This document shows positions 30,395 through 55,362 of a stretch of DNA of 64,000 nt, piece by piece. The position numbers and the translations under genes were made by a program. Within the stretch, counting starts at the first letter, position 1. The number at the start of each line of letters is the position of its first letter. Source of the DNA: Pachyseris speciosa (lineage: Eukaryota > Cnidaria > Anthozoa > Scleractinia > Pachyseridae); contig JAEMWC010000998.1 of assembly GCA_016490735.1 (NCBI GenBank), positions 90,001 to 154,000 on the forward strand, given 5' to 3'. The notes under the pieces were generated by a model. That model saw only the letters and a program-made list of their open reading frames with translations. It ran no database searches and had not been told where the DNA came from.

Positions 30395-30411
30395 TTAGTG
30401 CTTCCCGAATA
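30395..30411 (-). CDS. Exon 8 (terminal micro-exon) of minus-strand CUB gene
   Basis: After acceptor ctcttacag, 17 nt complete codon G|TA and add FGKH then TAA, giving ...SPVFGKH. The plus-strand paralogue ends GGLFGK from a 20-nt last exon. The shared FGK ending is the main support; the 174-bp intron before it is otherwise unremarkable. A tttatt at 30031-30036 (AATAAA on the minus strand) may be the polyadenylation signal. Confidence 0.65.
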
Positions 30412-30818
30412 CTGTAAGAGCTTACCCTAACGCTTGTATGAAAGTTGTCATTTGGACTAGAGGAACTGAGCCACTGATTTGTATCTTTCTCTATGAGATA
30501 GATTAAGTTTCGATCTGAATTGTACGAGTTGAACATCGGTTTTAGAAAATACTGCGTATTATGAATGATATATGAAGCAAATTACCTGGTGACAATTGGT
30601 AGACTCCATCAAATCCCCTTCTGGTTATACGGTGATCAGATCTGAAGATTATCGTTATCATTTCGCCTGTCCCTCGGATGCAAACTCGTTTGACGTACGG
30701 CGAGCCAAAGAACTGCCTCATCGCGCGACCAGTGCGGTGACCACGAAAACCAAATATTTTTTGCCATTTGGGTTTGTCATCATCATCGCCATCATCACCG
30801 TCGTCACCATCATCACAA

Positions 30819-30850
<32 letters not shown>

Positions 30851-52631: not shown

Positions 52632-52691
<60 letters not shown>

Positions 52692-55362
52692 GACAAAAAA
52701 GACATGACTCTGAGCTTTATTTATTTCCTATTTAGTCGTGATTACGTCAAAGTTTTCGTGGGCAGACGACTTCTCTATCGCTTAGCTGGTAAAGGAGATG
52801 ACGGAGACAAAAAGTATCTGAACAAAATCGATGATGACGATGACGACGATGATGATGACTGCGATGACGATGATGGCGATGATCGCGATGACCGCGACGA
52901 CGGCGATGACGACAAACGAAGCATCCGCCAGGGCTTCTATAGAGAAAAACGTCGGCGAGGCGCTAGCGTTATATCTATCCATGGAACTGGCGAACCAGTT
53001 AAGATCGTCTTCAGATCGGATCCTTGGGTGACCAGGAGGGGCTTCTTCGCTCATTATAGTACGGGACAAGCAGGTGAGATGATCATCTCGATTACTAATA
53101 CGTTATCTGATTATTAACTGAGAGCGCCAAAGACATTTTCTGGTATTCCGGCTCCAGTATTTACAGGACTGATACCATGCTCCCTCAAATTTAGGGAATA
53201 TCTTCTTCCTTTCAAAACCGCCTTTCCTTTTCACCTTTTGCCACATCTACTACAAAAGAAACTCAAAAATTCTGCCTCTAATTATTTACAATGGTAATGG
53301 CAATGGCAATGGTAATGGATTTATATACCGCATATGTCGTATAGTTTCACGGCGGCTTATGAACGTTTTTAATACAAGATTAAACTATATCCCGTGATTT
53401 TTCCTTTACTCGATTATAGTAATCTGTGGAGCACCACTGACAGGCCCATCTGGGAATTTTTCATCCCCTGGTTTTCCCGCCAACTATCCCAACGATGCTC
53501 GGTGCAGATGGTCTCTCACTGTTCCAAGGGGTTCAACGCTGATGCTGAACTTTTTGACTTTTGAAACTGAGCGGTGGTGAGTTGTGTTTCGTCTCCTGTT
53601 GCTTGTTTTAAGTAATGTTGTTAAGCTTACAGATGTTGTTGAGGTTATAATTATCGTGAAGAATTTTTAAGGGGTTCAACGCTGATGATGAACTTTTTGA
53701 CTTTTGAAACTGAGAGGTGGTGAGTTGTGTTTCGTCTCCTGTTGCTTGTTTTAAGTAAGGTTGTTGATAGATGTTGTTGCGCTTATAGCTATCGTAGGGA
53801 CTTTTTTTTACAAAAGAAAGCTTATAAGAGGGTTATGGATTACAAGCCTTACGAGCTTGAAAACTAGAAGAACAAAGCGAAACCTAGTGGAGGAAGGGCT
53901 TGACTTTTTTTAAGGTGGCGAAGCTGATGGTCAACGATCCTCAATGAAGTCTCTACAAGGGATTTGACTAGAATAGCAGTTAAAATTCTCCAAGCTATCA
54001 TATTAATAAGTAAAAAAGGAATAATTTTGATATTTTGTATTGATAATTTTTTTGTCGCTATGAAAATATTATTTTAGATCTATATTATCCAATCACATCC
54101 TCCGATAAAGCAGACAAAGTAGCTATAAAGAATATCTAGAGAGTGTATTTAGACCTAATGTATATGTTTTTTTTACAGCCACGATTACGTTGAAATCGTT
54201 CAGGGATGGCGTGTGGTACAGCGCTTGAGTGGCGTTTACAGACGTTACGGTTGGTACAAAGGGATAGATGATGATGACGACGATGATTGTGATGACGACG
54301 ATGATGACGATGACGACGATGATGATGATGATGACGACGATGACTATCGTTACAAAAAGAAGTACCGCATGAGAGGCTTCTTTGGCTTCCCTTACGTCTA
54401 TGTTCCAGGCACGGGGGAAGAGATTGCAATCATTTTTAAATCTGACCGCATTATCACTAGACAAGGATTCAACGCTGTGTATCGTGTTTTACAAGGTAAT
54501 AGTCTTTTTTTGTGGTGAACATTTTTCTTTTTCACTTGCCAAGCGCCCTGCTCCTGGACGAATAATTAGAAAAGTAGCACGTGAAGCGTTTTTACAGCTG
54601 TGAATGTGACCAGTCTCACTCACCACTTGCAGTAATAGACGTTTTTGTATCAATCTTCTTTAGAATTTTTTTTTCTCAGAAAAATGGTTTTTCAGAAAGT
54701 GGGGACCGAAATGGAGATGGCCTACAAAGACCAATACTTGGAGAGCTACGAAAGGATTGAGATCCCCTCCTCGAGGACTCTCCTCCCATTAAAACGTTTG
54801 CTCACCTTTTCTGACTGCCAACCGGTCTGTTTTTAAGACGTGCAACGAAGGGCTACCTTTGATATTAAAACAATAAAAATCAAATTAATGAAAAGTTTTC
54901 GGTTCAAACCAGGAGGCCTTACTAAAGAAACGTTTTTATTCACTTTCCCCAGTGATCCCTCGATCTTCGTTTCCCACTCCAACTGCACTTTTATTAGCTT
55001 AAGGAATGAAAGAAAAGCCCTTATCAGAGATTTCTTTATTTGCGACTCTTCATCTCAAAGGACAGTATTGTCCTAAAGAAAATCTCAAAGCAAAGGCATT
55101 AGTTTAAAATTGGTCTCTACGAGTTCAGGAATGTGCATTTCATTTCAGACGTTGTGTGTGTATTTCCATTGTTTGTTATTAGTTACTCACAACCCTCTCA
55201 CAGAACTGAACTGTGGGCTGGGGGGGGGGGGGGGTGAGTCAAGTATAGTGTTTTTTATGGTGGTGGGGGGGGGGGCATTTCTGTACAATTTTTCTTGGGT
55301 TTAAACGTAAAATAATTGATACATGTTTCTTTTATTTTGCAGGGGGACTATTTGGAAAGTAA
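46987..55362 (+). CDS. Secreted two-CUB protein with polyaspartate loops
   Basis: Seven exons join in frame (46987-47013, 49253-49349, 50738-50894, 52736-53073, 53420-53576, 54179-54495, 55343-55362) to 1,113 nt, 370 residues plus stop. Layout: signal peptide MKSLLSILTLAITYATVTQ; a short Pro/Arg linker; CUB1 43-203 with an acidic tract at 126-153 (Cys136 inside); CUB2 207-362 with an acidic tract at 289-314 that includes 18 consecutive Asp after Cys296; C-terminal GGLFGK. All four CUB cysteines are present in both domains, with the third made at the exon junction. The calcium-site acidic residues are kept (FETE-C-RDY, FRSD). The product should be secreted and extremely acidic. It is the paralogue of the gene ending at 30395 but lacks the LU and mucin exon. 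AATAAA at 55741 is a possible polyadenylation signal. A biomineralisation role is inference from acidity and likely host. Confidence 0.85.
49253..49349 (+). CDS. Exon 2 of plus-strand CUB gene
   Basis: Acceptor tttaatttcag, donor CAAG|gtatga, 97 nt. It encodes LAITYATVTQ, completing the signal peptide, then a proline- and arginine-containing segment ending SRRQPQ. Leaves phase 1. Confidence 0.8.
49505..49769. mobile_element. PIF/Harbinger-like MITE with taa target duplication
   Basis: The ends agcctggttttcactagtga and its inverse (gctagtgaaaaccaggct) are terminal repeats of about 50 bp. The triplet taa flanks both sides (49502-49504, 49770-49772), a Harbinger-type duplication. The interior is built of repeated gcaagcataagc/gcttatgcttgc phrases that fold back. 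It lies in intron 2 of the plus-strand CUB gene. Confidence 0.7.
50738..50894 (+). CDS. Exon 3 of plus-strand CUB gene (CUB1 first half)
   Basis: Acceptor ttgtttag, donor TG|gtaagt, 157 nt, phases 1 to 2. It encodes ACGGPLAGPSGNIASPFYPG, NNAYCVWTITVPKGS and DFLFFETES. Confidence 0.85.
51250..52200 (-). mobile_element. Non-LTR retrotransposon (CR1/L2-like) RT fragment
   Basis: Minus-strand translation shows an RT catalytic region (LLFLLYINDSPNCFHFS, then MHADDISLTFASAD, the YADD-type box) followed by a long C-terminal part: HFDYCSEVWGNCNNGLSDRL, QILQNRAARILMSASFD, LGWRKLCHQRLQKK, and after breaks FVFRDNVNSYHLRNTDN and SYSGAQLWNSLLF. Several stops and shifts are present. It is a 5'-truncated dead copy lying antisense in intron 3 of the plus-strand CUB gene. 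Confidence 0.75.
52467..52522 (-). ncRNA. Hammerhead ribozyme, type I (left arm)
   Basis: On the minus strand: stem I 5' TTGC, core CTGATGA, stem II GTGTGGT paired with ACCATAC, core GAAA, a short stem III (ACAG / CTGT, loop CA), cleavage-site C, then GCAA pairing with the stem I strand. All invariant core bases are present. Type I hammerheads with a minimal stem III are known from metazoan retrozymes and Penelope-like elements. Confidence 0.75.
52536..52591 (+). ncRNA. Hammerhead ribozyme, type I (right arm)
   Basis: TTGC (52536-52539), CTGATGA (52540-52546), stem II GTGTGGT (52547-52553) with ACCATAC (52567-52573), GAAA (52574-52577), stem III ACA / TGT with loop ACTC, cleavage C at 52587, and GCAA (52588-52591) closing stem I. 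Stem III differs from the left-arm copy yet still pairs. It is in sense orientation in intron 3 of the plus-strand CUB gene. Confidence 0.75.
52632..52692. repeat. (AT)n microsatellite
   Basis: About 27 AT dinucleotides between the inverted repeat and exon 4 of the plus-strand CUB gene. Confidence 0.95.
52736..53073 (+). CDS. Exon 4 of plus-strand CUB gene (CUB1 second half with acidic loop)
   Basis: Acceptor ctatttag, donor GCAG|gtgaga, 338 nt. It starts RDYVKVFVGRRLLYRLAGK. Ten Asp precede Cys136 and 13 more acidic residues follow, then a basic stretch (RREKRRRG region), HGTGEPVKIVFRSD and VTRRGFFAHY. Confidence 0.85.
53420..53576 (+). CDS. Exon 5 of plus-strand CUB gene (CUB2 first half)
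   Basis: Acceptor gattatag, donor TG|gtgagt, 157 nt. It encodes ICGAPLTGPSGNFSSPGFP, NDARCRWSLTVPRGS and FLTFETER. Its last 51 nt and the following intron sequence are duplicated downstream (53669 onward). Confidence 0.85.
53526..53805. repeat. 143-bp tandem duplication covering an exon 3' end and its donor
   Basis: 53526-53622 (last 51 nt of exon 5, its donor and 46 nt of intron) recurs at 53669-53765 with a few changes (gatgctgaac to gatgatgaac, gagcggtg to gagaggtg). Similarity continues weakly to the ends of both units (gatgttgttg...ttatcgt / tatcgta). The second unit keeps the TG|gtgagt donor but has no acceptor of its own. Confidence 0.8.
54179..54495 (+). CDS. Exon 6 of plus-strand CUB gene (CUB2 second half with acidic loop)
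   Basis: Acceptor tttttacag, donor CAAG|gtaata, 317 nt. HDYVEIVQGWRVVQRLSGV leads to seven Asp, Cys296 and 18 Asp, then a basic aromatic stretch (YRYKKKYRMRGFFGF), VPGTGEEIAIIFKSD and ITRQGFNAVYRVL. Confidence 0.85.
55343..55362 (+). CDS. Exon 7 (terminal micro-exon) of plus-strand CUB gene
   Basis: After acceptor attttgcag, 20 nt complete G|GG and add GLFGK then TAA. It matches the FGK ending of the paralogue's 17-nt exon. Confidence 0.7.

Follow-up and report, generated by a model that had tools for sequence, protein, structure and literature searches.

Paralogous CUB-domain genes with polyaspartate loops in the coral Pachyseris speciosa: candidate skeletal-matrix proteins

Introduction

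Two described kinds of protein frame the genes reported here, the CUB-domain proteins and the acid-rich proteins of the coral skeleton. In Acropora millepora, the skeletal CUB domain-containing protein B3EX01 has 409 amino acids (aa), a signal peptide, 13.6% threonine and an isoelectric point (pI) of 5.05, with low-complexity stretches at residues 91–104, 150–229, 349–359 and 392–409 (PMC4043741). Two skeletal CUB proteins of A. digitifera (CUB dcp 1 and 2) also carry a signal peptide, have a Thr-rich sequence and contain one CUB domain and no other known domain; transcripts of a CUB skeletal protein were reported as weak in egg and early embryo stages (PMC4890752). The Stylophora skeleton has yielded XP_022799089.1, a CUB domain-containing protein-like isoform X2 (PMC7115838), as well as a CUB tolloid-like protein and a carbonic anhydrase, STPCA2-2, with an acidic insert (PMC8086859). 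Here we describe two genes, A and B, in a 64,000-nucleotide stretch of the Pachyseris speciosa genome (contig JAEMWC010000998.1, positions 90001–154000; the window). Both encode probable secreted proteins whose CUB domains hold runs of aspartate within the fold.

A number of the acidic proteins known from corals have been described as disordered, with CARP4, CARP5 and CARP6 called intrinsically so, and SAARPs combine acidic regions with a conserved non-acidic one. Membership of the CARP/SAARP group has been defined by about 30% or more Asp+Glu over more than 100 residues, or by orthology to such a protein. These accounts, and those of the skeletal CUB proteins above, follow the excerpts of the sources that were covered. 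Research on coral calcification has yet to explain what keeps acidic proteins in register on the surface of aragonite as it grows.

No description of a polyaspartate CUB protein was found in the literature covered, which includes few subscription journals; an earlier note on this DNA, which knew of no described family with polyaspartate built into the CUB fold, has thus met no counterexample there. Such proteins were also absent from the CUB-related text of PMC4320547, PMC8382919, PMC6824150, PMC7655939, PMC7853314, PMC12152308, PMC12662967 and PMC5951882.

Results

Gene models and domain architecture

Both genes were reconstructed directly from the window DNA. Gene A lies on the minus strand and comprises eight exons (38846–30395; genomic span, 8,452 nt) encoding 509 aa; gene B lies on the plus strand and comprises seven exons (46987–55362) encoding 370 aa. 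The genes are arranged head to head, with 8.1 kb between their start sites. Every intron of A and B is bounded by GT-AG, and exon phases match between the two genes: first-half CUB exons measure 157 nt in all four cases and are entered after one codon base, second-half CUB exons are entered after two, first exons are 27 nt in both, and the last exons are 17 nt (A) and 20 nt (B). Both models proposed in the earlier note (509 and 370 aa, on opposite strands) rebuild exactly from the DNA, and the phases, 157-nt CUB exons, 27-nt first exons and tiny last exons that it listed as common to the pair are all borne out.

In gene A (all minus strand), exon 1 (38820–38846, 27 nt) holds the start codon and the start of a hydrophobic leader, followed by exon 2 (36735–36810, 76 nt). 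Exon 3 (34738–35175, 438 nt) encodes a u-PAR/Ly6 domain and a Thr/Pro-rich linker of mucin-like composition. The first CUB domain (CUB1) is split between exons at 33847–34003 (157 nt) and 33135–33424 (290 nt), and the second (CUB2) between exons at 31607–31763 (157 nt) and 30586–30953 (368 nt), before a last exon (30395–30411, 17 nt) that ends in a TAA stop. Gene B (plus strand) consists of exon 1 (46987–47013, 27 nt), exon 2 (49253–49349, 97 nt), CUB1 exons at 50738–50894 (157 nt) and 52736–53073 (338 nt), CUB2 exons at 53420–53576 (157 nt) and 54179–54495 (317 nt), and a last exon with the stop (55343–55362, 20 nt).

The Pfam CUB profile (PF00431) matched the two proteins with E-values of 1.4e-31 and 4e-34, above its cut-off score, with two CUB domains in each; a structure model of an orthologue contains two CUB folds, with the CUB beta-sandwich, and disordered acidic loops. 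The Ly6 assignment in A (PF00021, residues 40–126) passed narrowly, at 25.7 bits against a cut-off of 24.8. Neither peptidase nor NTR domains were found in A or B by Pfam, and astacin (PF01400) was absent both from these Pfam results and from the precomputed domains of relatives P0001–P0008, P0012–P0014 and P0016. The hydrophobic N-termini, judged by eye, suggest that A and B are probably secreted. With assumed leader lengths, the predicted pI is 4.24 for A and 4.68 for B, and Asp+Glu account for 79 of 488 residues in mature A and 66 of 350 in mature B.

Polyaspartate loops and the kept cysteine

Each of the four CUB domains of A and B contains 23–31 Asp in the loop preceding the strand that carries the GTG(E/D) motif, and the Asp runs stand in frame at this one site in all four. 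The acidic loop of A CUB1 (33253–33366, minus) contains one Cys and that of A CUB2 (30776–30886, minus) two; in B, the loops of CUB1 (52830–52913, plus) and CUB2 (54267–54344, plus) contain one each, the latter reading 7 Asp, Cys, 18 Asp. The polyaspartate thus sits inside the CUB domain and not in a separate tail, as the earlier note had stated. For comparison we took the eight best-scoring CUB domains (seven distinct) of 150 scored matches from 1301 candidates in the same genome. These never exceed 4 acidic residues per 10, whereas A and B reach 10 of 10. In all eight of these ordinary domains the fourth Cys stands at the same place, reading Phe/Tyr-Cys-Gly in seven and Phe-Cys-Ser in one. 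The Asp runs of A and B therefore flank the canonical fourth-Cys place; on the sequences and the structure model, the fourth-Cys loop of each CUB domain is swollen by Asp on both sides of that Cys.

At the sequence level, all four canonical Cys positions are kept in three of the four window CUB domains; in A CUB2 the first two are both gone, as a pair, replaced by F and G in the first-half exon. Loop cysteines were counted in 29 domains of A, B and 13 relatives, excluding P0033 and the Ly6-only P0037–P0039. The third-position Cys is present in 23 of the 29, and in every one of these 23 it is followed by a stretch with 19–33 acidic residues that includes one or more Cys. Three domains have Arg at the third position, and the stretch that follows is then 28 residues long, with 0–2 acidic residues and zero Cys. 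The remaining three end before the third-Cys landmark, yet their acidic run still holds a Cys. Two further Cys occur within the stretch in four CUB2 domains (A, P0004, P0008 and P0012). The loop stretches of four B-type proteins are alike in length, at 79–87 and 70–79 residues. Among 26 acidic loops scanned, 5 contain furin-like sites.

As side observations, the Cys near the loop end of A CUB2 (30586–31763) lies five residues later than in P0012, and the first CUB domain of P0017, a Branchiostoma hybrid protein, carries an insert rich in Ser and Asp in an adjacent loop, so CUB loops accept acidic inserts elsewhere too.

In the calcium-binding subset of CUB domains, a Glu and two Asp positions serve as Ca2+ ligands. 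Judged from the residues themselves, these positions (TE..D and F(R/K)SD) are present in all four window CUB domains.

Relatives and family history

Relatives were sought in a collection of 5.8 billion proteins, with one search scoring only the best 8000 candidates and the others scoring all. Close relatives came from Acropora palmata, Desmophyllum pertusum, Pocillopora damicornis, Stylophora pistillata, Oculina patagonica and Orbicella faveolata, and the eight with a named source (P0001–P0003, P0006, P0007, P0013, P0014 and P0033) are all from stony corals; P0004, P0005, P0008, P0012, P0016, P0037–P0039 and P0041 carry no species name. S. pistillata contributes two related proteins, whose contigs are reported to be equally long. 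P0033, a Pocillopora model without second-half CUB exons, shares its contig with P0003. The weaker matches P0009–P0011, P0015, P0017–P0032, P0034–P0036, P0040 and P0042–P0046 were taken for ordinary CUB proteins, with P0009, P0011, P0015, P0017, P0032 and P0043 inspected.

B aligned over its full length (100%) with its A. palmata relative, at 72% identity, and A matched P0004 (502 aa) at 59% identity across 97% of A. Both P0004 and the 508-aa P0005 run unbroken on contigs no longer than 2,917 and 1,871 nt, respectively, less than the 8,452-nt span of A; they are therefore most likely spliced transcripts, which supports the model of gene A. The database names of the relatives (tolloid-like, nas-39-like, DMBT1-like) are automatic and misleading, and proteome papers may consequently have misread such proteins as proteases or patterning factors. 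The earlier note had proposed a search of coral genomes and skeletal proteomes; the protein collection yielded coral relatives, and the link to the proteomes is by automatic name only.

A tree was built from 24 of 28 family domains, omitting four that were too short, and two outgroups. B CUB1 grouped with A. palmata (99/96) and then with Desmophyllum and Pocillopora (88/88), and A CUB1 with P0004 and P0005 (97/91). CUB2 domains stood apart from CUB1 (83/98, marked as open). In conflict with this pattern, P0005 CUB2 joined P0014 and P0016 (100/98) instead of A CUB2. Nor did the B-type CUB2 domains unite. A and B are paralogous genes of a family that has to date come to light in stony corals; the paralogy of these CUB genes, as first proposed in the earlier note, is supported. 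With the coral species placed in the two main coral lineages, the A/B split may, on moderate tree support, be older than the parting of those lineages, a timing that is tentative because of the P0005 CUB2 placement and the ununited B-type CUB2 domains. Desmophyllum, a coral without algal symbionts, has kept a B-type protein, which favours calcification over symbiosis as the tie.

Neighbouring genes and other features of the region

Local tblastn covered 224 of the 314 kb of the contig (the window plus 160 kb of flank) and revealed exons of four further genes of related design, all on the plus strand. In three sets, nearly identical to one another and lying at contig positions 166927–208500 (L024, L026–L028) about 18 kb apart, a Ly6 exon accompanies one CUB domain in split form, with CUB exons at 170973, 188502 and 206411. 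Their second CUB exons differ at 1–5 of 336 bases, and the sets apparently represent a recent expansion beside the window genes. From exon order, the Ly6 and CUB exons of each set would form one gene. The first-half CUB exon of the three copies measures 154 nt by script, against 157 in A and B. When the pieces of one copy were joined, Pfam scored CUB at 58.6 bits and Ly6 at 17.7 bits, the latter below its cut-off. In each of the three the acidic loop is milder, with the Cys retained (NDDECGDDDDDEN), and the sequence ends in a Gly/Ser/Asp-rich, low-complexity stretch. The fourth set is diverged, with a Ly6 exon at 237205 and CUB exons at 240568–241514; judged by eye, this gene lacks both cysteines and the long Asp run.

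Ly6 exons related to that of A were also found elsewhere in the genome, ten on contigs C97 and C29 (32–41% identity) and one on C11. This genome search overlooked the Ly6 exons next to the window, so diverged Ly6 exons escape it. The Ly6 domain, Thr-rich linker, loop cysteine and neighbouring genes are all additions to the earlier note, which mentioned none of them.

The assembly comprises 984 Mb in 2368 contigs; match scores are repeated on C463 and C1837, and identical CUB domains occur in L006 and L007, perhaps as unmerged haplotypes. An open frame between A and B (42624–43253, minus) encodes a DUF3504 domain (96 bits), possibly derived from a Crypton-like element. Open frames at 12602–14822 (minus) include one weak reverse-transcriptase match (18.5 bits against a cut-off of 29.6) and are perhaps a retroelement. 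A frame at 27200–28204 (plus) gave a weak match to rhodopsin-type seven-transmembrane proteins (23.9 bits against a cut-off of 30.5). Finally, an Asp-coding run at 29820–29986 (minus) was considered as an extra exon and rejected, as no CUB sequence was seen around it.

Discussion

A candidate skeletal-matrix role

We consider it reasonably probable that A and B are skeletal-matrix proteins in which a CUB scaffold presents disulfide-stapled polyaspartate loops to Ca2+ or aragonite. Through the canonical disulfide between the third and fourth Cys, every acidic run would be held against the body of its CUB domain, beside the three acidic Ca2+-holding positions of calcium-binding CUB domains. The folded scaffold would thereby offer stapled polyanionic loops. 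Calicoblastic cells would release the proteins into the skeletal matrix, where these loops could gather Ca2+ or bind growing aragonite; the CUB pairs, and in A also the Ly6 domain, might bind other matrix proteins. The skeletal location, the staple and the binding of Ca2+ or mineral are the steps that we infer. The calcium or mineral role suggested in the earlier note gains from the named close relatives, all of them stony corals, from the contig neighbours and from the Stylophora name, and is still an inference.

Several observations weigh against this reading. P0013 and P0014 match the Stylophora skeletal entries by automatic name only. B3EX01 has a pI of 5.05 and the A. digitifera proteins contain a single CUB domain; in the parts of the literature covered, the strongly acidic two-CUB form is unreported from skeleton. 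The apparent absence of the family from non-calcifying anthozoans, with no sea-anemone or corallimorph name among the matches listed, comes from searches of limited sensitivity. Within the family, CUB1 is without its acidic loop in three members, one each from Oculina, Orbicella and Stylophora; these three compact domains may reflect one ancestral loss, so that the match between Cys and loop is less independent than the count implies. In the Oculina and Orbicella relatives (P0006 and P0007), the third Ca2+ position of CUB2 is Asn, not Asp. The single-CUB neighbours yielded no Thr-rich exon when scanned for an open stretch of that kind, which weakens their likeness to B3EX01. Finally, Asp-coding repeats occur in apparently non-coding DNA, as two in-frame runs in the window (at about 29820–29986, minus) and as two GAY repeats (Y, T or C) in flank L021 (near 649 and 1715), and hence such repeats arise here unaided.

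These repeats bear most directly on the possibility that GAY triplets simply expanded in a tolerant CUB loop, leaving Asp runs that play no role. The non-coding GAY repeats are a possible source of the runs, and the disorder of the loop in the structure model means that insertions would be tolerated. Neutral growth of this kind appears very unlikely, however, given that all four window domains carry the runs at one site, that 23 of the 26 domains with both landmarks keep 19–33 acidic residues with a Cys inside, and that loop lengths are alike across the four B-type proteins. GAT and GAC are also mixed within the runs as expected at random, with a longest pure run of 5, a point tempered by the mixture in the non-coding repeat; since that repeat is mixed too, we rejected the use of GAT/GAC mixing to test for selection.

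A role in extracellular matrix, mucus or settlement with no tie to mineral is rather unlikely, if a good deal less so, the loops in that case binding cations or basic partners in a mucus or adhesive matrix. CUB and Ly6 domains serve widely as binding modules outside the cell, the Thr-rich linker of A is mucin-like, and the weak egg and early-embryo transcripts noted above (PMC4890752, in the excerpts covered) would suit such a role, whereas the close relatives of named source are all calcifying stony corals and the Acropora skeletal proteomes, in the parts covered, contain CUB proteins. We regard as very unlikely a protease-processed or helper protein that steers a metalloprotease in the manner of PCPE-1 or tolloid CUB domains, its loop serving as a decoy or being excised. 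The names tolloid and nas-39 probably stem from the common CUB domain; a protease identity drawn from them was rejected as no peptidase domain is present, and a PCPE identity likewise as the NTR domain is absent. A furin-cut loop was also rejected, with furin-like sites in just 5 of the 26 acidic loops.

Beyond the skeletal-matrix reading, we tentatively suggest, with less confidence, that A and B might belong to a class of mineral-control proteins specific to the stony-coral lineage, in which the fourth-Cys loop of the CUB fold became a disulfide-stapled polyaspartate hoop beside the CUB Ca2+ site, tandem CUB domains form an ordered Ca2+-gathering array, and the genes are clustered with what are probably relatives of the skeletal CUB proteins. 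A fold that holds acidic runs at fixed places would be a concrete, testable unit of the matrix. If such a class is real, its ordered array would differ from the disordered acidic proteins so far described from coral skeleton.

Comparison with known systems

We file A and B as a variant of the coral CUB matrix proteins, the kinds already known being the coral CUB skeletal and acid-rich proteins. Folded CUB domains elsewhere provide the widest comparison. PCPE-1, cubilin, TSG-6 and further CUB proteins of solved structure share with A and B the CUB fold and sequence matches across the CUB core, but none has a polyaspartate loop in the alignments shown. PCPE-1, the procollagen C-endopeptidase enhancer, consists of two CUB domains and an NTR domain; A and B have the two CUB domains but no NTR match. 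The carbonic anhydrases STPCA2 and STPCA2-2 resemble A and B in placing an acidic insert on a folded protein and, according to the excerpts covered, are found in coral skeleton, but they are enzymes with a fold unrelated to CUB.

Asp runs and a low pI connect A and B to the coral acid-rich proteins, SAARPs and SAPs. The acidic residues of A and B, however, lie in the loop of a folded CUB domain, unlike those of CARPs and SAARPs, and their overall Asp+Glu content (79/488 and 66/350) falls short of the compositional rule for that group. As for the Acropora skeletal CUB proteins (B3EX01 and CUB dcp 1 and 2) and the Threonine-rich protein B3EWZ7, the source sections covered describe features that A and B partly share: a signal peptide (predicted in A and B), CUB domains and, in A, Thr-richness. 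None of the listed relatives is labelled B3EX01. The low-complexity C-terminus of the single-CUB neighbours loosely recalls the low-complexity end of B3EX01 (392–409), by description only. What sets A and B apart from these Acropora proteins, as covered here, is the combination of two CUB domains, polyaspartate loops and short C-terminal ends.

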